Assembly: GCA_946618265.1 (NCBI GenBank)
Contig: CAMOLA010000056.1
Span: forward strand, 1 to 13,791
Origin: an uncultured Eggerthellaceae bacterium
Lineage (GTDB): Bacteria; Actinomycetota; Coriobacteriia; Coriobacteriales; Eggerthellaceae
Length of the DNA stretch: 13,791 bases
Reading direction: 5' to 3'
This document shows, one piece after another, positions 1,919-10,997 of the stretch; position 1 is the stretch's first letter, and each line of letters opens with the position of its first letter. A program made the position numbers and the translations under genes. The notes under the pieces were generated by a model. It made no database searches, was not told the DNA's origin, and was given only the letters and a program-made list of their open reading frames with translations.

Positions 1919-3106
1919 CTATTCCGCTGGTGCGCCGCAGGCGTCGAGGGCTGCTTGTAGGAAGGATCGGTAGGCTCCCGTCATGGCCTCGTAATCTGCG
2001 ACGAGCTGGGCGTGCGACTTGCCGGTGCACAGGCGCGCCCACGGCTGCGCCTTCACGGTGAGGGCGTCGGGCGGTGCGACGATGCGCACCTGCCCGCCCG
2101 TTCCCGCGAGCCACCGGAAAAACGTCGGCGACTGCGCGATGGTCACGCACGTGTCGGCCGTGGCGTTCTTGCTGCCGGGGTCGCCGCGGAAATTCGCGAA
2201 CTCGAGCCCGAACCCGAACAGGTCGAACACCTCGTTGGTGCGCTCGGCGCCGACGCGCAGGAAAACCGTGCGCGCGATGCCGCCGAACATCTGCACCGAG
2301 CGGCGCATGCGACGGGCGGCCGTGCGCCTGGCCTCGGCGACTTCCTCGCACGCATCGGCGCGCTCAGCTGAGACGCGTGCGAACCGCATGCGGTCGATGC
2401 GGCTGCGCATCACGCGCTGGCCGTGGCGCCAGGGCGTCGCGCTGTATGATTCCAGGTAGTAGTTGCCATCGGAGAAGAACAGCGCGATGGGCGTCTCGAC
2501 GCGCAGCGTGTCGCCCGAATCGCCCGGCAGCGCGATCTGGCTCCCGTCGAAGTCGTTGAACGTGTACTCGAATTCCACCTTGCGGTCCTCGCGCAGCGCC
2601 TGCGCTATGGCATCGCAGGCGTCGAGCACGGCCGCGCGGCCCTCGGCCTCCATGCGCTGCACGACGTGCACGTCGCCTATCAGGTGGTATTCCTCGTGGG
2701 TCGACACCATGCCGAGCAGCGCCTCCTGAAGGTCCGCGCTTTCTTCGGGCGTGAGGAACCTCGAGGACTGTACGGCGTTGAACAGCAGGCGCACGTGAGC
2801 GGGCGCGAGCGCGGCGCCCTCGCACCATGAGCCGGAGGGGCTGGTGCGGAAGGCGTATCCCAAAGCGGGGAAGCGGCGGAGCGCGGCGATGTCGGCGTTG
2901 AGCGTGTTCTCGGCGGGCGCCACGTCGTCGCCGAACCGCGCGGCCAGCACGAGCCGGATGTCGGCGTTGCTCAGGCGGTGGTCGGCGTCGCTGAGCGTCT
3001 TCAGGATCTCGGCCACGCACAACAGCCGCTCGCGCGCGTTGTCGCAGCGCAGGCTATCGGGCAGCAGACGTGCGTATTCCCGTGCGGTTTCGGGGGTGAT
3101 GCTCAT
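1919..3106 (-). CDS. WYL-domain transcriptional regulator (helix-turn-helix / WYL / WCX)
   Basis: This 395-residue protein has the three-part layout of WYL regulators. A winged helix occupies about residues 22-98 (SNADIRLVLAARFGD and NTLNADIAALRRF look like the helix pair). The WYL domain spans about 160-245, with TPIALFFSDGNYYLESY and RSRIDRM matching the conserved strands. A WCX-like C-terminal domain spans about 275-375. WYL domains sense nucleic-acid or nucleotide ligands in several described systems. GGAGG precedes the start at 3106. It is divergent from the Ro-like gene across a 472-bp gap that holds an operator-like palindrome and the candidate RNA. In other bacteria Ro60/RNA-repair loci often carry a dedicated regulator, so control of the Ro-like operon is a fair inference, though not shown here. 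Confidence 0.85.
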   Translation of the reverse strand: MSITPETAREYARLLPDSLRCDNARERLLCVAEILKTLSDADHRLSNADIRLVLAARFGDDVAPAENTLNADIAALRRFPALGYAFRTSPSGSWCEGAALAPAHVRLLFNAVQSSRFLTPEESADLQEALLGMVSTHEEYHLIGDVHVVQRMEAEGRAAVLDACDAIAQALREDRKVEFEYTFNDFDGSQIALPGDSGDTLRVETPIALFFSDGNYYLESYSATPWRHGQRVMRSRIDRMRFARVSAERADACEEVAEARRTAARRMRRSVQMFGGIARTVFLRVGAERTNEVFDLFGFGLEFANFRGDPGSKNATADTCVTIAQSPTFFRWLAGTGGQVRIVAPPDALTVKAQPWARLCTGKSHAQLVADYEAMTGAYRSFLQAALDACGAPAE

Positions 3107-3314
3107 GATGCCTCCGTTCGAGTGCGGCGTTTGCGCTTGTTCTGGCGCATGTCCGTGGCGAGGGTCGTGATCGCGATTCGCTGCTGGGCGTTTTGCGCTA
3201 GTTTTGGCCCGCCCATCGCCGACCTGGGGCTATGCGCCTGTTCGGCGAAACAAGTGCATAATACGGTCGATTCGGTTTCCCATCTTAGCTCAAAGTTGGC
3301 CTTTTATTTGAAAA

Positions 3315-3334
3315 CACCTTAAATATTTGAGGTG
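3315..3334. promoter_or_regulatory. operator-like palindrome in the WYL/Ro-like divergent gap
   Basis: Twenty bases form CACCT-T-AAATATTT-G-AGGTG, a palindrome with a single mismatched pair. It sits in an AT-rich patch (about 3296-3332) inside otherwise GC-rich DNA, about 40 bases upstream of the likely -10 box of the rightward transcript. Position and symmetry suit a dimeric regulator binding site; the WYL protein encoded next door is the obvious candidate. TTGGCC (3296-3301) and TTAAAT (3319-3324) could also form a weak promoter here. Confidence 0.45.
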
Positions 3335-3375
3335 ATTCGCGCTTTCGCGTCCTGGAACGGTGCGTGCCCGCCGCG

Positions 3376-3381
3376 TATTCT
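3376..3381 (+). promoter_or_regulatory. possible -10 box for the candidate RNA / Ro-like transcript
   Basis: TATTCT at 3376-3381 matches four of six consensus bases. TGGAAC at 3353-3358 lies 17 bases upstream as a poor -35. A transcript would begin near 3388, close to the 5' strand of the long stem. The call is weak by sequence alone and gains from position. Confidence 0.3.
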
Positions 3382-3382
3382 A

Positions 3383-3517
3383 TGGTCATGCGAGGCGGCC
3401 AGCATCGCAGGGGGCGGTTACTTCCCACCCATTTCAAATTGCTTGCGTTGGGAGACGCAAGGTCCCTCGGAAGAGGGACAACCGCTTCCGATACCATCTG
3501 GCCGCCACGCACGATCA
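3383..3517 (+). ncRNA. candidate Y-RNA-like structured RNA upstream of the Ro-like gene
   Basis: The 135-base segment folds by inspection. Its two ends (3383-3402 and 3498-3517) pair over 20 positions with 18 pairs, one of them G-U, and two 1x1 mismatches at 3388/3512 and 3393/3507. Inside an asymmetric internal loop (3403-3409 and 3490-3497) a second stem, 3410-3419 with 3480-3489, has 10 pairs including two G-U. The head carries two abutting hairpins: CTTGCGT-tgggag-ACGCAAG (3442-3461) and GTCCCTC-ggaa-GAGGGAC (3462-3479, a GNRA loop). Bacterial Ro proteins bind Y RNAs whose 5' and 3' ends form a long stem with small mismatches, and these are encoded next to the ro gene in several species (established for Deinococcus and others). 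It could instead be a structured 5' leader of the Ro-like mRNA, since no terminator separates the two. Confidence 0.55.
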
Positions 3518-3578
3518 GACCCGGCGGAAAGCCGCGGCGATGACGGTCCATGTGGCGCGAAAACGAAAGGAGGAGCCA

Positions 3579-5012
3579 ATGGCAACGTTCAACACGAAGG
3601 CGGAGGGCATGAAGACGACCAACCGGTGCGGGCATGCGGCCTACAAGCTGGCAGCGCGCGAGGAGCTCATGTCGGAAGTGCTGACGAGTTTCGTCTGCGA
3701 GCCCAAGTTCTACGGCGACACGACGCCGCGCATGGTCGAGCTCGCGCGCGAACTGGCCCGGACCGACGGCCTGTTCGTCGCCAAGCTGGCGCTGTACGCG
3801 CGCACGGTGATGAACATGCGCTCTTCCTCGCACGTCTTGTGCGCGGTCCTCGCCCACGAGGTGAAGGGCGAGCGGTTCGTGCGCCAGGCGGTTCGCGCCT
3901 GCGTGGTCCGCGGCGATGACGTCACCGAGATGCTCGCGGCCTATTTCGCGCTGTTCCCGGGCGAGGCGCTGCCCAACAGCCTGCGCCGCGGCCTGCGCGA
4001 CGCGCTCGACGCGATGGACGACTACTCGCTGGCGAAGTATCGGATGGAAGGTCGTACGGTCACGATGGCCGATGCCGTCAAACTGTGCCATCCCCATCGT
4101 CGCGAGGCCACGCGCGCCCTGCTTGAGGGCGATTTGGCCAAGCCGATGAGCTGGGAAACCGAGCTCTCGGCGCACGGCAACACGGCTGAAGTGTGGGAGC
4201 GCCTGCTCGCAGAGGACGCCGTTCCCTACATGGCGCTGCTTCGCAACCTGCGAAACCTGCTGAGGGTCAAACCGGCCAATTTCGACCTGGCGCTCGAGCG
4301 TTTGGCCGATCCGGCTGCCGTCGCGAAGTCGCGTCAGCTGCCGTTTCGCTTCTGGTCTGCTTACAAGTCGGTCGAGCAGCTGGCATCGGGCAAGACGCTG
4401 GCGGCGCTCAGCCGGGCGTTGGACGCCTCGGTCGCAAATTACCCGACTCTGAGAGGCCGTACCGTCGTGGCGGTGGACGTTTCCGGCTCGATGGATTGGT
4501 GTACGGTATCGGAGCACAGCAGCGTCAAGTGCTCGGAAGTCGCGATGATGCTGGCAGCTTGCCTGGTCCGCCTGTCGGAGGACTGCTGGATGTACGTGTT
4601 CTCGGACGATGCGTGGCGCGTGCCGGTCGTGGCAGGCGCAAGCGTGCTCGATACCATGAAGGCGATGGAGTTCACCGCGGGCTGCACTAATCCGGAGGCG
4701 GTGTTCGAGGCAATGGAGCGCGATGGCGTCGATTGCGACCGCGTCGTGTTCCTCTCGGACTTCGAGGTGAACCGTCCGTTCCGTCGTGAGAGGGGCACGT
4801 TCCAAACATGTGCGGATCGCCTGCGCAAGCGGGTCGGTCATCGGGTGTGGCTGCATGCTTTCGACATGGCCGGTTTCGGCACGACCCAGTTCGCCGGCAG
4901 CGATACGACGTTTGCTGCCGGCTGGAGTGACAAGCTGCTGAGTTTCGCCGCTCTGGCGGAGGCCGGCATGGGCAGCATGGTCGATGCCGTGGACGCGCTC
5001 GAGGTGGCCTAG
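3579..5012 (+). CDS. rsr: Ro60-like RNA-binding protein (TROVE domain plus VWA domain)
   Basis: This 477-residue protein matches the bacterial Ro60 (Rsr) layout. A helical-repeat TROVE ring occupies about residues 15-285 (for example KFYGDTTPRMVELARELA, LAKYRMEGRTVTMADAVKLCHP). A von Willebrand factor A domain follows from about 295. The metal site (MIDAS) is intact: D300, S302 and S304 in DVSGSMD, T370 in GCTNPE, D394 in FLSDFE. Ro proteins bind misfolded RNAs in the ring cavity and Y RNAs on its outer surface, and help RNA turnover or survival under stress. The start at 3579 is chosen for AAAGGAGGAG ending four bases upstream; an in-frame ATG at 3360 lies inside the structured RNA and lacks a comparable site. 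It is followed by a strong hairpin, so it is probably monocistronic, or co-transcribed only with the upstream RNA. Confidence 0.9.
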   Translation: MATFNTKAEGMKTTNRCGHAAYKLAAREELMSEVLTSFVCEPKFYGDTTPRMVELARELARTDGLFVAKLALYARTVMNMRSSSHVLCAVLAHEVKGERFVRQAVRACVVRGDDVTEMLAAYFALFPGEALPNSLRRGLRDALDAMDDYSLAKYRMEGRTVTMADAVKLCHPHRREATRALLEGDLAKPMSWETELSAHGNTAEVWERLLAEDAVPYMALLRNLRNLLRVKPANFDLALERLADPAAVAKSRQLPFRFWSAYKSVEQLASGKTLAALSRALDASVANYPTLRGRTVVAVDVSGSMDWCTVSEHSSVKCSEVAMMLAACLVRLSEDCWMYVFSDDAWRVPVVAGASVLDTMKAMEFTAGCTNPEAVFEAMERDGVDCDRVVFLSDFEVNRPFRRERGTFQTCADRLRKRVGHRVWLHAFDMAGFGTTQFAGSDTTFAAGWSDKLLSFAALAEAGMGSMVDAVDALEVA

Positions 5013-5129: not shown

Positions 5130-5223
5130 TCATAGTGTGATAGAGCGGGGACGCGCAGGCGCGGGCCCCGAATGGGCGGCGGTCCGGCGGGCTGCTGCCC
5201 TGCAGATGTTTGGCGGTGGTTGG

Positions 5224-6615
5224 ATGGAAGAGATGCTGAAAGACCGATTCGACATGATGGCGGCGAAGGTGCCCGCGTCGGCGGCGGCCGTGATGTCCGA
5301 GCTCGCGGACGCGGGTTTCGAGGCGTACGTCGTCGGCGGTTGCGTGCGCGATGCGCTGTTGGGGAAAGAACCCCACGACTGGGACATGACCACCAACGCG
5401 ACGCCCGACCAGATGAAGGCGGCGGTCAGCTTCCCCTCGATCGACACGGGCTTGAAGCACGGTACGGTCACGTTCGTCGTGGACCACGAGCCCATCGAAG
5501 TGACCACGTTCCGAACTGATGGCGCGTATTCCGACGGACGCCATCCCGATTCGGTGTCGTTCGCCACGCGACTCGAGGACGACTTGTCGCGGCGGGACTT
5601 CACGGTCAACGCCATGGCGTGGTCGCCCGAGGTCGGCCTGGTCGATCCGTTCGGCGGCGCATCCGACCTCGAGGCCAAGGTGCTGCGCTGCGTGGGCGAT
5701 GCCGATCGGCGGTTTTCCGAGGATGGCCTGCGCGTCATGCGCGCGCTGCGGTTCGCGGCCGTGTACGGCTTTCGCATCGAGGAAGGCACGGCGCGCGCTG
5801 CCCACGACAAGAAGTGGATGCTCGACGCGGTGTCGGCGGAACGCATCTGCACCGAGCTCACCAAGATGATGGCGGCGCCCGACGGCGCGCACCTGGCGTC
5901 GATCGTCAAGGAGTTCGCCGACGTCATGATGCAGATCATGCCCGAGCTGGAGCCGACGTACGGCATGGACCAGCAAAATCCCCATCACGATCGCGACTGT
6001 TGGACGCACATGGTTGACACGATGGCGGACGTCGAGGCCGATTCGACCTTGCGGTTGACGGCGTTGCTCCATGACGTGGGCAAGCCGGTCGTGAAGCGGG
6101 TCGGGCCCGATGGCATAGCGCATTACAAGGGCCATGCCCCCGAGGGCGCCTGCATAGTCGAGGCGCTGCTGCGTCGGCTGAAGTTTCCGCGCAAGACGAT
6201 CGACGAGGTGTATTTCCTGGTCATGCAGCACGATAGCTGGCCGTCACCCACCAAGCGATCGGCGCGGCGGTTCCTGGCGCGGTGCGGCGACGAGCAGACT
6301 GCGCGCAAGCTGCTCGCGCTCATGAAGGCCGACCGCAAGGCCCATGCGCCCGGGTCGGTGAGCGGCAAGTTCGCCGAGCTCGATGACTTCGAGGTGCTCA
6401 TGAACGCCGAGCTGAACGAGGAGACGGCGTTTGCGGTCAAGGACCTGGCGATCAGCGGCGCCGATTTGATGGAACGCGGCTGGGAGGAAGGCCCTGCGCT
6501 CGGCGCCGAGCTTGAGCGGCTGTTCGGCCTCGTGCTTGCCGACGAGCTGCCCAACGAACGCGCGGCGCTGCTCGCCGCGCTACACGAGCCGAATGATACA
6601 GTACCTCAGAGGTAA
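5224..6615 (+). CDS. cca: CCA-adding tRNA nucleotidyltransferase with HD domain
   Basis: The protein is about 463 residues, within the usual 440-480 range. It adds or repairs the 3' CCA end of tRNAs in the cytoplasm. The class II nucleotidyltransferase head shows VVGGCVRDALLG, then DWDMTTNA with the two metal-binding aspartates, then RRDFTVNAMAW and FSEDGLRVMRALRFA (RNA-binding and nucleotide-selection helices). The C-terminal half has an HD phosphohydrolase domain (CWTHMVDTM, then LTALLHDVGKP). The start is uncertain: in-frame ATGs at 5206, 5224, 5233 and 5254 all have weak Shine-Dalgarno sites; 5224 is chosen as a compromise and all keep the whole catalytic core. The last seven residues (NDTVPQR) and the TAA come from palindrome copy 3. 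It is followed at 99 bases by the metallo-beta-lactamase-fold gene on the same strand. Confidence 0.92.
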   Translation: MEEMLKDRFDMMAAKVPASAAAVMSELADAGFEAYVVGGCVRDALLGKEPHDWDMTTNATPDQMKAAVSFPSIDTGLKHGTVTFVVDHEPIEVTTFRTDGAYSDGRHPDSVSFATRLEDDLSRRDFTVNAMAWSPEVGLVDPFGGASDLEAKVLRCVGDADRRFSEDGLRVMRALRFAAVYGFRIEEGTARAAHDKKWMLDAVSAERICTELTKMMAAPDGAHLASIVKEFADVMMQIMPELEPTYGMDQQNPHHDRDCWTHMVDTMADVEADSTLRLTALLHDVGKPVVKRVGPDGIAHYKGHAPEGACIVEALLRRLKFPRKTIDEVYFLVMQHDSWPSPTKRSARRFLARCGDEQTARKLLALMKADRKAHAPGSVSGKFAELDDFEVLMNAELNEETAFAVKDLAISGADLMERGWEEGPALGAELERLFGLVLADELPNERAALLAALHEPNDTVPQR

Positions 6616-6624
6616 TGTATCATT
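6592..6624. repeat. dispersed palindrome, copy 3 (overlaps the cca 3' end)
   Basis: Same 33-base palindrome as copies 1 and 2, but the left arm has G at 6601 where they have T, while the right arm keeps the old A. This leaves one mismatched pair. It provides N-D-T-V-P-Q-R and TAA to the CCA-adding enzyme. The central base is A on the gene-sense strand, as it is on the sense strand of the modD-like and methyltransferase genes. Confidence 0.9.
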
Positions 6625-6638
6625 ATGGTAGCGCTTGC

Positions 6639-6671
6639 AATGATACAGTACCTCTGAGGTACTGTATCATT
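6639..6671. repeat. dispersed palindrome, copy 4
   Basis: It lies 14 bases beyond copy 3. It carries the same T-to-G change in the left arm (6648) together with the matching A-to-C change in the right arm (6662), so the arms are perfectly complementary again. It lies between cca and the metallo-beta-lactamase-fold gene and overlaps no convincing coding sequence. Confidence 0.9.
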
Positions 6672-6713
6672 TTGCGCGATGGTGAAGTTGGGGGAAAGGA
6701 AAACAAGGTGCCC

Positions 6714-7616: not shown

Positions 7617-8026
7617 TTCCCACGGGGAACGTGTTGCAAACCAAACTCCCACGGGGAAACCGATTTCCCACGGGGAACATGTGCGCGAACCGTTTTCCCA
7701 CGGGGAGCGTGTGCCCGGATCAAGCTCCCACGGGGAACGTGTGCTCGAATCAAACTCCCGCGGGGAAGCTGGTTGCGGATCAAATTCCCACGGGGAAACC
7801 GGTTGCGAATCGAACTCCCGCGGGGGAAACGGTCGCGAATCAATTTCCCACGGGGAAACCGGTTGCGAATCGAACTCCCGCGGGGGAAACGGTCGCGAAT
7901 CAATTTCCCACGGGGAAACCGATCGCAGATCAAGCTCCCGCGGGGAACATGTGCGCGAATCATTTTCCCACGGGGAAGCTGGTTGCGGATCAAACTCCCA
8001 CGGGGAAACCGATTTCCCGCGGGGAA
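7617..8026 (+). repeat. phased palindrome array 1: 15 cores of TTCCC(A/G)CGGGGAA
   Basis: Cores start at 7617, 7646, 7665, 7695, 7725, 7755, 7785, 7815, 7845, 7875, 7905, 7935, 7965, 7995 and 8014. The 12 cores from 7665 to 7995 sit on an exact 30-bp period; each end of that block has one core only 19 bp away. Spacers share a loose consensus (GGTTGCGAATCAAA or ATGTGCGCGAATCA). The core starts with TT or CT, its middle base is A or G, and three cores have an extra G. The blocks 7801-7860 and 7861-7920 are identical, a recent 60-bp duplication. Several frames are open only because the unit is a multiple of three. No credible gene lies in it. Confidence 0.95.
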
Positions 8027-8073
8027 AACGGTTCGAGGCGTGGATGCTGCTCATGATGCGTGAGGGGAAGGCT

Positions 8074-8257: not shown

Positions 8258-8263
8258 TATAAT
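8258..8263 (+). promoter_or_regulatory. -10 box of the TerD-like gene
   Basis: A perfect TATAAT stands 58 bases before the chosen start codon. No good -35 is visible at the usual spacing (TCGGCT at 8235-8240). The box covers the in-frame ATG at 8262, which argues against translation starting there. Confidence 0.55.
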
Positions 8264-8321
8264 GAGCCGAAACGGCGAACTGCGCGTCCTGTCGGCGCAA
8301 CCAAGCAGGCGAGGAGGCAGC

Positions 8322-10706
8322 ATGGGATTGTTCTCGAAAAAGATGTGGCATGACGATCTCCCGTCAAAACAAAGGCGCGAGGTAATTCACAACTTTCGGC
8401 CGACGGCTCAAAAGGAAGAATTCGAGGCTTTCGGGGTTTTGTACTACCCGAATTTCGTCGATGTTGCCAGCGAGGACGCCGTTCCCATCGACGAAGACGA
8501 CATGGCTTTCGCGATGACCTGCGTCGCGAATATGGAAGGCACGGGATACACGCTTGCGCCCGAGGCCATCGTCACGCTCGCAAGGAGCAGGCACTGGGTC
8601 AAGGAGCGCTTGGGAAGCGGCGAGGAGATCGATTTGCAATACAGCCTCGACCCCGCTGCCGACATTCGCGCGCTCGTTCCGAGCGTCAAGGCCGATCCGA
8701 TGTATCCGGGCTTTCCGCTCGAAGTGATGCAAATCGACGAAATGCGCTACCGCCTCGACCAGATGCGCCACTATTCCTCGACGTACGGCGTGGAATGGTT
8801 GGCGGGGCTTTTTGGCGTGAACGTGCAGGTGGGGCGAGGGTGGCTTCCGCACGATGGCGAGCGCAGCGCGGGAGCGGGCGGCGCTCGTGCTGGGGGGAAC
8901 GTGTCCGATGACGCTGGGAGAAAGGGCCAAGCCCCAGAATACGCCGTGCTCGCGGATGCGAAGCCCCTCGTCGTGGTGACGAGCGACGAGGCGATGCGCG
9001 AAATTATTCTCGCGCGAATCGCCCGACCCACGCGCATGCACGACCTGGAGGTCCGCTGCGCTGTCAAGCATTTCTTGAAACCCGGGGCGGAAGAGCCGCT
9101 CGTCTTCGGTTTTCACGAGAACATGCTCGAGATGGTGCGCATCGCGTCTCAGGGGAGCTCATCCGAGCTTCGCGACATGCTGCTGCGCACGGCCCAACAT
9201 CCGGGCGACGTGCTGAAAGCCGCCAACTACGTGCGCCTTGCGCATCCCGAGGGGAAGGCGCGGCTTTCGAATCGTCAGAAAAAGGGCTTCTGTCAGGCGC
9301 TTTCGCGTTTTCCTTATCAAACGCTCGTGGAGAATATCGCCGACGCGCGCCCGGAGCACCGCCGTGCGTTGAATTACCTTTCCATCGGGCGTTTCGGCGA
9401 CGGCAAGCTGAAGCGCGCCGTCAACGCGGTCGGCAGCGGCGCGGTGACGAGTTGGAATTCCCGAATCGAGCGCGCTTGGGAACGCCTTGCGCAAGATGGT
9501 CCCGAACCGTTGCTCGCGCTGTACGCCCAACGCCCTGGCATGTTGCTGCGTTCGCTCACGCGACTTGCGAAGGGCGGCGTGCCCGTAGACCTGATTGCCA
9601 AGACGGTGGAGGCGTCGGACGCCTATTCGATTTCCTCGCTTGCGCGGACGCTTGCGATCCTGTCGGCCGATGACCTGGGCTTAACGCGCATGAAGCAGCA
9701 TCCCAACGAGAGCGAGGAGGCGTTCGCGACCCGGAGGAAGCGGCATCTGGAGGCGTATCGCACCGTGACCCCGATCGTTCGGGGCATGCTCGCGCGGCGG
9801 CTCGCCGGTATCGACACCCCCTTGCGCGGACGGCGGGTGTATGTGGATGCCGGAGGGTTTTCGCTCGATTCGTCGGTGCTGATGCCCAACGATTCCGGTA
9901 ACACGGGCACTGCGTATCCGCCGGCGGGCATGGCTTACGCATTGCCGCCCGATGCGACCGTGCGTTTCTTCACCTTCTGGAATGACCAGGAGAAACGCGT
10001 CGATGTCGACCTGCATTTCTATGCGTGGGACGAGCAGGCTGGCGAAACGTACCATGTGGGCTGGGATGGCGCGTACCTTGGCCGGGGCATGGTGACGAGC
10101 GGGGATATCACCCATAGTGACAATGCGGTGGAGTACCTCGACCTGAACATGGCCGAGGCGCACGCGTGTGGAGTCGATTATGTGAAGCAGGTTTGCCATA
10201 TATTCGATGGGGCGTCGAGCTGGGCGAATATCGAGACCTGCTTTTCGGGAGCCATGGTTGTGGAAGCTCTGGGTGACATCGTTGCGGCTGGCGGGGAAGG
10301 CGCGTTCGCGAGCGGAGAGGCTGGGGCTGGTGCGCATGAAGGCGGCGCGGCGAACGCGATGCGAGCGGGCGTGGTGTCGGCGGGTGCGGCTCAAGCAGGG
10401 GCGATGCAGGCTGCCATCTACCAGGCCGAAAATCTCATCTTCCGCGACGACATGACCGGTGCGGGGCGAAGCATGACCTACGCTCTCGTCGACGTGAAAA
10501 ACGGTGCCGTGCGCATCCAGCGTGGGGCGAAGTACCCGTTCGTGCGCACGTCGTTTCCATTAGGGGCATACATCGATCTGCTCATCGAGGCGCAAGGTGC
10601 CACGCGCGTCGCCGCGCCCGACCAGGCGGATGTCGTGCTTTCGGTCGGCCGCACCGACAAGGAAGGCGCAATCTGCCTGATAGACGAGGGCTTTTTCCTC
10701 GGATAA
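8322..10706 (+). CDS. 794-residue protein with a TerD-like C-terminal segment
   Basis: The protein is large, has no signal peptide or membrane segment, and is presumably cytoplasmic. Residues 1-160 are mixed and acidic. A Gly/Ala-rich low-complexity insert lies around 183-205. Helical repeats follow (about 255-500), with phrases such as RPGMLLRSLTRLAKGG. Residues about 500-640 form a beta-rich domain: GRRVYVDAGGFSLDSSV, then VRFFTFWN, VDVDLHFYAWD, HVGWDGAY, GMVTSGDITHS and EYLDLNM. That order resembles TerD-family stress proteins and the long actinobacterial/myxobacterial proteins I recall as the MXAN_6230/SCO0854 group, though no RING-type cysteine cluster is visible. A second Gly/Ala-rich insert sits around 650-700. 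The start at 8322 has GAGGAGG ending four bases upstream, and a perfect TATAAT lies 58 bases upstream. Repeat arrays bracket the gene. Function is unknown; the TerD link is inference from motif order. Confidence 0.8.
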   Translation: MGLFSKKMWHDDLPSKQRREVIHNFRPTAQKEEFEAFGVLYYPNFVDVASEDAVPIDEDDMAFAMTCVANMEGTGYTLAPEAIVTLARSRHWVKERLGSGEEIDLQYSLDPAADIRALVPSVKADPMYPGFPLEVMQIDEMRYRLDQMRHYSSTYGVEWLAGLFGVNVQVGRGWLPHDGERSAGAGGARAGGNVSDDAGRKGQAPEYAVLADAKPLVVVTSDEAMREIILARIARPTRMHDLEVRCAVKHFLKPGAEEPLVFGFHENMLEMVRIASQGSSSELRDMLLRTAQHPGDVLKAANYVRLAHPEGKARLSNRQKKGFCQALSRFPYQTLVENIADARPEHRRALNYLSIGRFGDGKLKRAVNAVGSGAVTSWNSRIERAWERLAQDGPEPLLALYAQRPGMLLRSLTRLAKGGVPVDLIAKTVEASDAYSISSLARTLAILSADDLGLTRMKQHPNESEEAFATRRKRHLEAYRTVTPIVRGMLARRLAGIDTPLRGRRVYVDAGGFSLDSSVLMPNDSGNTGTAYPPAGMAYALPPDATVRFFTFWNDQEKRVDVDLHFYAWDEQAGETYHVGWDGAYLGRGMVTSGDITHSDNAVEYLDLNMAEAHACGVDYVKQVCHIFDGASSWANIETCFSGAMVVEALGDIVAAGGEGAFASGEAGAGAHEGGAANAMRAGVVSAGAAQAGAMQAAIYQAENLIFRDDMTGAGRSMTYALVDVKNGAVRIQRGAKYPFVRTSFPLGAYIDLLIEAQGATRVAAPDQADVVLSVGRTDKEGAICLIDEGFFLG

Positions 10707-10732: not shown

Positions 10733-10997
10733 TTCCCGCGGGGAACTTGATGCGCGCGGATCAAACTCCCGCGGGGAACTCGGTTGCGGATCAAACTCCC
10801 GCGGGGAAGCCGTACCGTTTTCCCACGGGGAACCGAACCAAACTCCCACGGGGAACTTGTCACGTGTGGATCAAACTCCCGCGGGGAAGCTGAATCGTTT
10901 TCCCGCGGGGAAACCAGAGCCGAATTTCCGAACCGAATTCCCACGGGGAAATTGATCTCCTGCGGTAAAGCGGTTCCGAGTCGTTTCCCCGTGGGAA
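10733..10997 (+). repeat. palindrome array 2, at least 8 cores plus one degenerate and one inverted
   Basis: Cores start at 10733, 10766, 10796, 10820, 10843, 10876, 10900 and 10938. Spacing is irregular (33, 30, 24, 23, 33, 24, 38). A decayed core is at about 10957-10969 and an inverted one (TTCCCCGTGGGAA) at 10985-10997. GATCAAACTCCC precedes several cores, as in array 1. A stretch of about 45 bases around 10789-10832 is repeated 80 bases later with few changes. The array begins 27 bases after the stop of the TerD-like gene. The 362-bp stretch 10707-11068 holds no gene. Confidence 0.9.

Follow-up and report, generated by a model that had tools for sequence, protein, structure and literature searches.

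In bacteria, Ro binds the lower stem of its Y RNA, and in Deinococcus the Y RNA both gates Ro and tethers it to PNPase, as stated in the relevant passages of PMC4726728. Bacterial Y RNAs are portrayed as mimics of tRNA through which Ro is tethered to an exonuclease, and PNPase is said to be bound by their tRNA-like domain (both in the portions of PMC8394870 that treat these RNAs). The YrlA family (RF02553; Salmonella YrlA) is encoded beside the ro/rsr gene and the ends of the RNA form a long stem that holds Ro. The element analyzed here resembles YrlA in its location and in the long stem predicted for its ends, but it has neither a T-arm nor a tRNA-like domain, which in YrlA comprises T, D and acceptor arms, and it does not match RF02553.

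The window (the whole stretch of 13,791 nucleotides that was analyzed) originates from an uncultured Eggerthellaceae bacterium. Its ro gene (3579-5012, forward strand) specifies a protein of 477 amino acids with a TROVE and a Ro60 vWA domain, which the earlier note had called Ro60-like. This assignment was confirmed by Pfam (TROVE, PF05731, E 5.6e-31; Ro60 vWA, PF25045, E 1.3e-8), by a profile search of the PDB, which recovered Ro structures including Rsr of D. radiodurans (2nvo), and by the predicted fold, as all 13 PDB chains that matched the AlphaFold2 model (mean pLDDT 82.4, pTM 0.73) at E<=0.001 were Ro/TROVE proteins. To collect relatives, 30 Ro proteins were aligned and the alignment was searched against genome contigs, which yielded 50 loci; whole-genome searches added more Coriobacteriia. 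The closest Ro relatives (loci L001, L002 and L003) were 63-69% identical, and metagenome contigs encode further Ro proteins (P0002-P0013) with 66-82% identity. The distribution of Ro was sparse, with matches in 13 of 396 genomes in the class, in 12 of 140 genomes in the family of L017 and in 4 of 138 genomes in the family of L002, one of the latter (G130) extending over 65 residues only. The ro frame begins at a conserved ATG in L001 and L002, and Ro homologues align from that Met. In the window the frame is open in the 5' direction to 3360, through the whole RNA element (3360-3579); it is likewise open in L003 and L017 and not in L001 and L002.

The RNA core ends 65 nt before the ro start. 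Within 3383-3517, the earlier note had described a terminal helix of 18 pairs over 20 positions with two 1x1 mismatches, a second stem of 10 bp and two 7-bp head hairpins, one with a GNRA loop, and had considered these helices hard to explain by chance. Both stems were reproduced in the minimum free energy (MFE) structure, to which the centroid was identical: the terminal helix (3383-3402/3498-3517; 5+4+9 pairs) is followed by an internal loop (5' strand 7 nt, 3' strand 8 nt), the 10-bp stem 2 and two adjacent hairpins. An inverted-repeat search, independent of the fold, recovered the arms 3383-3402/3498-3517, 3442-3448/3455-3461 and 3462-3468/3473-3479, and thereby the terminal helix and both hairpins. 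Only the GNRA count had to be revised, as both hairpins close such tetraloops in the MFE structure (GGGA and GGAA). Chance is indeed a poor explanation, given an MFE of -71.7 kcal/mol against a shuffle mean of -44.97 (sd 3.75; z -7.13), with none of 200 shuffles as good. The core folded alone (3388-3513) gave a z of -6.5, and six related RNAs gave values between -3.2 and -5.1.

All parts of the RNA lie on the forward strand. Stem 1 (5' strand 3389-3402, with the inner 9 bp from 3394-3402 and with 3389-3392 past a 1x1 mismatch; 3' strand 3498-3511) and stem 2 (5' strand 3410-3419, 10 nt; 3' strand 3480-3489) were delimited by the fold and the pairing test. The internal loop was delimited by motif comparison and has CATCGCA on its 5' side (3403-3409; family consensus CAUUGCA) and GATACCAT on its 3' side (3490-3497; mostly GATTTTAT in Clostridia). 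The motif TACTTC occupies 3419-3424. The head (3420-3479) consists of a 5' single strand and the two hairpins (inverted repeats) at 3442-3461 (7 bp) and 3462-3479 (7 bp, GGAA loop), and lacks a T-arm according to the fold and the T-arm test. The loop of hairpin 1 (UGGGA) could pair with UCCCA just 3' of TACTTC, and in L003 the corresponding strands read UUGGA and UCCAA. Considering that the joint chance by shuffling is 1% for two sequences only, we regard this pseudoknot as a lead and make no claim for it. The predicted core (3388-3513) measures around 120 to 126 nt, with 126 nt for the ends as placed here, and bacterial Y RNAs range from 90 to 150 nt (size statement in PMC8394870). The transcript may start near 3388, because a -10-like TATTCT ends at 3381; the outermost 5 bp (3383-3387/3513-3517) may or may not be part of it. 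This candidate -10 element (3376-3381, forward strand) was recognized by alignment and reads TAYTCT in four aligned loci. A sigma-70 scan yielded no promoter for the RNA, and a terminator scan yielded no site after the RNA and one terminator-like site upstream of it, with 0.6 expected.

A stem of this kind recurs near the ro genes of relatives, many gut bacteria among them. Of 56 loci, 52 have TACTTC, which lies at the top of the stem, in the 700 nt preceding ro; among the remaining 700-nt blocks of these loci, 48 of 491 contain it. The motif was absent from the upstream region in L006, L063, L067 and L069. This count leaves out loci in which the ro start was missing or the match partial (L041, L044, L050), places that had already been counted (L055-L057, L059, L061, L062, L068, L102) and partial or remote matches (L058, L071, L103, L104), and it retains near-duplicates such as L007/L009, L027/L049, L064/L066, L076/L084 and L077/L079. 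The RNAs share a common plan, in which stem 1, a 7-nt loop like CAUUGCA and a 10-bp stem 2 that closes with the UU of UUACUUC lead into a variable head. On the 3' side of the head come the other strand of stem 2, a loop of 8 nt resembling GAUUUUAU (in the window, GAUACCAU) and the other strand of stem 1. The 5' and 3' ends pair in a long stem that is homologous to that of other ro-linked Y RNAs.

For 119 candidates with this plan the mean arm-pairing score was 33.6, against 18.5 when the downstream sequence was shuffled (best control 31). The 3' arm was then placed by the loop motif alone, so that pairing did not guide its choice. After removal of 25 candidates without the loop motif and 27 redundant ones, 67 rows remained, several visibly misplaced rows being retained. 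Within this set the two helices were paired in 77% of the cells, against 55% when the 3' arms were permuted among the rows (best of 500: 58.7%) and 37-47% in slid controls, and there were 362 double-change cells against 138 after permutation (highest 187). In the seven window-type RNAs 88.6% of the cells were paired and 11 double-change cells were present against 3.9 expected from the shuffles, a number that none of 500 shuffles attained; an example is the change from C-G to A-U at window positions 3399/3501. Two of the five pairing measures for these seven RNAs were modest, being reached by 21 and 37 of the 500 shuffles. The earlier note had proposed a test for covariation in all four helices upstream of orthologous Ro genes; compensatory changes were found in the two stem helices, and the head was seen to diverge even between close relatives.

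A covariance model of the seven window-type Y RNAs (R1) was searched over 52 sources. At E<=1 it returned 51 rows. Two were on the window itself, one of them antisense; 48 preceded ro in the same orientation, and the remaining one, in L069, lay 3' of ro on the opposite strand. At E<=0.01 there were 36 rows, 35 of which lay outside the window, and 34 were further same-strand sites upstream of ro in loci outside the training set. Among its hits were Y RNAs encoded next to Clostridial ro genes (best E 4.6e-8), and in L006 it placed the copies more than 2 kb upstream of ro. Among the 138 genomes of the family, searched with strict filters and 24 candidates scored per genome, R1 matched G001, G002 (two copies) and G003 only, which are the three with a full-length ro. 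An exact sequence pattern selected the same three; at two mismatches it added two genomes, as many as a reversed-pattern control matched.

None of the Y RNA models of Rfam reached its cut-off in the window clade. The best Rfam match of the window was Deinococcus_Y_RNA (17.2 bits, E 0.94, cut-off 80), YrlA (RF02553, at least 69 bits needed) gave no match in the window, and L003 matched none of the Rfam Y RNA families. L090 yielded a weak tRNA match only, and at the gathering cut-off L001, L002, L003, L082, L090 and the window together returned two tRNAs and nothing else. Seven loci from Clostridia contained 12 sister Y RNAs that matched the YrlA model, with E values from 4e-8 to 0.77; none of these matches reached its cut-off.

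Because the stem is kept near ro in relatives, shows double changes and co-occurs with ro in the R1 searches, we consider it very probable, from comparative sequence data, that 3388-3513 is a Y RNA gene and that its product is the non-coding partner of this Ro60-like ring protein. The earlier note had assigned the RNA to the protein at 3579-5012, and this is supported: the RNA belongs to a family encoded beside ro in Coriobacteriia and Clostridia, some members of which match YrlA below cut-off.

The head sets the window clade apart. Scoring a T-arm as at least four of five pairs around TTCNANN, we found one in 72 of the 109 Y RNAs; of the 60 loci or contigs, 44 had at least one Y RNA with this feature. 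In these counts L030 was entered as lacking a T-arm through a 3' arm that was placed too early, though its sequence has one, and for viral contigs the counts cover those copies alone that the pattern had matched. The T-arm was missing from each of the five Y RNAs of the clade (window, L001, two copies in L002, L003), in line with the divergent type without an obvious T-arm that had been proposed, and R1 recovered no Y RNA in G001-G003 beyond those already counted. The designation 'undescribed class' was too strong, however: because the Ro-docking stem is common to tRNA-like Y RNAs, the window RNA is better viewed as a head variant. The abstract of Chen et al. (2014) reportedly states that each species has at least one Y RNA with a tRNA-like domain. 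Among the titles listed by literature searches, none concerned Y RNAs of Coriobacteriia, and Y RNA sets without a tRNA-like member may have been described.

In Clostridia, the folds of L004, L023 and L048 have heads with a hairpin carrying a 7-nt anticodon-arm-like loop, a T-arm, an acceptor-like hairpin and a D-arm-like hairpin, and many Clostridial heads read as a tRNA that is opened at another place. Tandem arrays of two to four Y RNAs with differing heads, tRNA-like ones beside very short ones, were seen upstream of ro in L004, L005, L010-L016, L023, L024, L027 and L033-L040. As the head sequence changes even between close relatives, it could be functionless. A Y RNA that has lost its tRNA-like domain might then have no effector tether and merely occupy and stabilize the Ro ring, for which the heads of 17 nt (between the strands of stem 2) in L001 and phage contig L082, and of 14-24 nt in some members of the Clostridial arrays, can be cited. 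The window RNA and L003, however, each retain two stable head hairpins with a possible loop contact in both, and the heads in L002 still measure 71-84 nt, so that we consider a gate without a tether rather unlikely. By analogy with the known systems, the Ro gate and tether with another effector head is the likely arrangement, and, provided that the RNA is a Y RNA, tethering to a different effector is slightly favored over gating alone.

A second alternative, already raised in the earlier note as a structured mRNA leader, is that the element is a cis-acting structure in the 5' UTR of the ro transcript that yields no free RNA and to which Ro may bind in order to regulate its own production. Such a leader would fit the position immediately before ro in the same orientation, no terminator having been found between the two. 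Several copies do not precede ro in this way, which argues against it as the sole role: many Clostridia have two to four tandem copies upstream of ro, the copies in L006 lie more than 2 kb away, that in L069 lies downstream on the other strand, and stand-alone copies occur in L002, where the second copy precedes a nucleotidyltransferase gene by 107 nt on the opposite strand, and in two phage contigs (L082 and L090) that carry the same stem and in which no ro was detected. A leader as the whole explanation is therefore highly improbable, and a second role as a leader is possible.

The phage contigs came from IMG/VR, where 24 contigs contained the Y RNA pattern. Nine were read as Y RNAs, and seven of these nine records also encode Ro; the other 15 were left out, being without a matching 3' arm by eye. 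L082 (record of 21,059 bases) and L090 (4,940 bases), which may be fragments, have a window-type Y RNA, and no Ro was found in either record. A protein-level search of the viral contigs for Ro gave no relative. Their stem is identical to that of the window in 29 of 30 nt from GCGGCCAGC to TACTTC. The 17-nt head of L082 equals that of L001 in 16 of 17 positions, and the Y RNA of L090 has a T-arm. In both contigs the Y RNA (L082: 13312-13396; L090: 974-1098; both reverse strand) directly follows a GH25 lysin gene and a tRNA-Met gene is close by; L082 also encodes an integrase, a repressor-like HTH protein and a primase. When phages and plasmids were searched by BLAST with the RNA, no hit had an E value under 0.4, and wider phage patterns (8, 85 and at least 120 stretches) gave no further window-type Y RNA. 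Over 81 sources (78 loci from the pattern with 85 stretches, plus L082, L090 and L216), R1 matched only L082 and L090, both training sequences, below E 0.25; a scripted screen for the motif together with both arms covered every viral locus retrieved.

That there is no RNA gene at all, the element being either an N-terminal extension of Ro in the same frame or a structure arisen by chance in GC-rich DNA, would agree with the frame that is open to 3360 in the window and likewise in L003 and L017, but is refuted for practical purposes by the conserved start in L001 and L002 from which the homologues align, the double changes in the stem and the exclusive co-occurrence with ro.

Upstream of the Y RNA lies a palindrome, AAACACCTTAAATATTTGAGGTGATT (3312-3337), which was identified as an inverted repeat and by alignment as conserved upstream of several Coriobacteriia ro loci. 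It recurs upstream of ro in L002, L003, L017, L046, L060, L064 and L065 (eight matches including the window, 14 loci tried), with a degenerate form in L001. The divergent gene on its other side (1919-3106, reverse strand) encodes a WYL-domain protein (Pfam) with homologues at the same place in L003 (69%) and L046 (49%), and is a candidate regulator. Located between this gene and the Y RNA/ro pair, the palindrome is probably an operator. On the downstream side, ro is adjoined by a gene for a CCA-adding/poly(A) polymerase type nucleotidyltransferase (5206-6615, forward strand, Pfam; start predicted, frame open from 4984). In L002 the only gene of this type in the genome sits between two RlaP genes and the second Y RNA (8610-8762, reverse strand), the RlaP genes lying between it and ro. 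Because the gene is on another contig in G003 and none was found in G001, its tie to Ro and the Y RNA is a lead only. RtcB is encoded near ro in L017, and neither RtcB nor RtcA was seen among the window ORFs scanned by Pfam. Elsewhere in the window, arrays of ~30-bp repeats built on TTCCCACGGGGAA/TCCCGCGGGGAA palindromes occupy 7617-8030 and 10734-10856, and an 814-aa ORF (8262-10706) has no Pfam match at E<=0.001. Two adjacent intergenic palindromes, GATACAGTACCTC..GAGGT..GTATC, lie at 6591-6672 and account for chance miRNA matches in Rfam, a search of which with the whole window gave chance matches only.

Returning to the Y RNA with another effector head, the following mechanism can be proposed. 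The two-helix stem, whose 7x8 internal loop is fixed and which carries UUACUUC, is maintained by compensatory changes in Y RNAs encoded beside ro; it would bind the outside of the Ro ring and partly gate the entry of RNA, as known for other bacterial Y RNAs. The head would be held out as a handle for an effector, which in Deinococcus is the exonuclease PNPase. Since the handle of this clade appears to consist of short, fast-changing hairpins and is no tRNA mimic, the effector contact must differ or be lost. The WYL protein, acting at the palindrome 3312-3337, probably controls the Y RNA and ro together. The stem supports the Ro-docking half of the known mechanism, judged from sequence conservation, and leaves apart the effector half, which here would have to do without a tRNA-like domain. 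None of the Y RNAs detected in the three related genomes has a head of the tRNA type, on which basis we tentatively suggest that the Ro RNP of this clade may have given up tRNA mimicry altogether, with Ro serving another effector, perhaps the neighboring CCA/poly(A)-type polymerase, and that the stand-alone Y RNAs of temperate phages, with a near-host stem and exchangeable heads, might seize and redirect the host Ro ring; this combined proposal may well prove wrong.

With regard to known systems, the Y RNA genes on L082 and L090 recall the phage-encoded Y RNAs treated in sections of PMC12282133 and PMC7765460. The phages described there also encode Ro, unlike L082 and L090 as far as these possible fragments extend, and a host-like stem without Ro suggests that phages may use the host Ro, which would be a new reason to consider Ro RNPs in phage biology. 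The rsr-yrlBA-rtcBA RNA repair operon of Salmonella, as outlined in the corresponding part of PMC7790460, has RtcR and RtcBA as neighbors, whereas those in the window are the WYL protein and the CCA/poly(A)-type nucleotidyltransferase; both keep Ro and Y RNA genes together, and repair genes lie near some relatives of the window (two RlaP in L002, RtcB in L017). The Y RNA of Deinococcus radiodurans (RF01053) has an unrelated head, scores 17.2 bits against a cut-off of 80 and has no match in L003, but it has CGGUUACUUC following the second stem in common with the window RNA, and its stem-loop-stem arrangement is similar. The motif set CAUUGCA, UUACUUC and GAUWYYMU around the 7x8 loop, together with R1, detects Y RNAs missed by Rfam. 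To YrlA the window RNA is connected by its Clostridial sister Y RNAs, which have the same stem and loop motifs and whose tRNA-like heads are the part that matches RF02553. With the Ro-docking stem retained and the mimic lost, this clade separates the two halves of the RNA and makes the role of tRNA mimicry testable.
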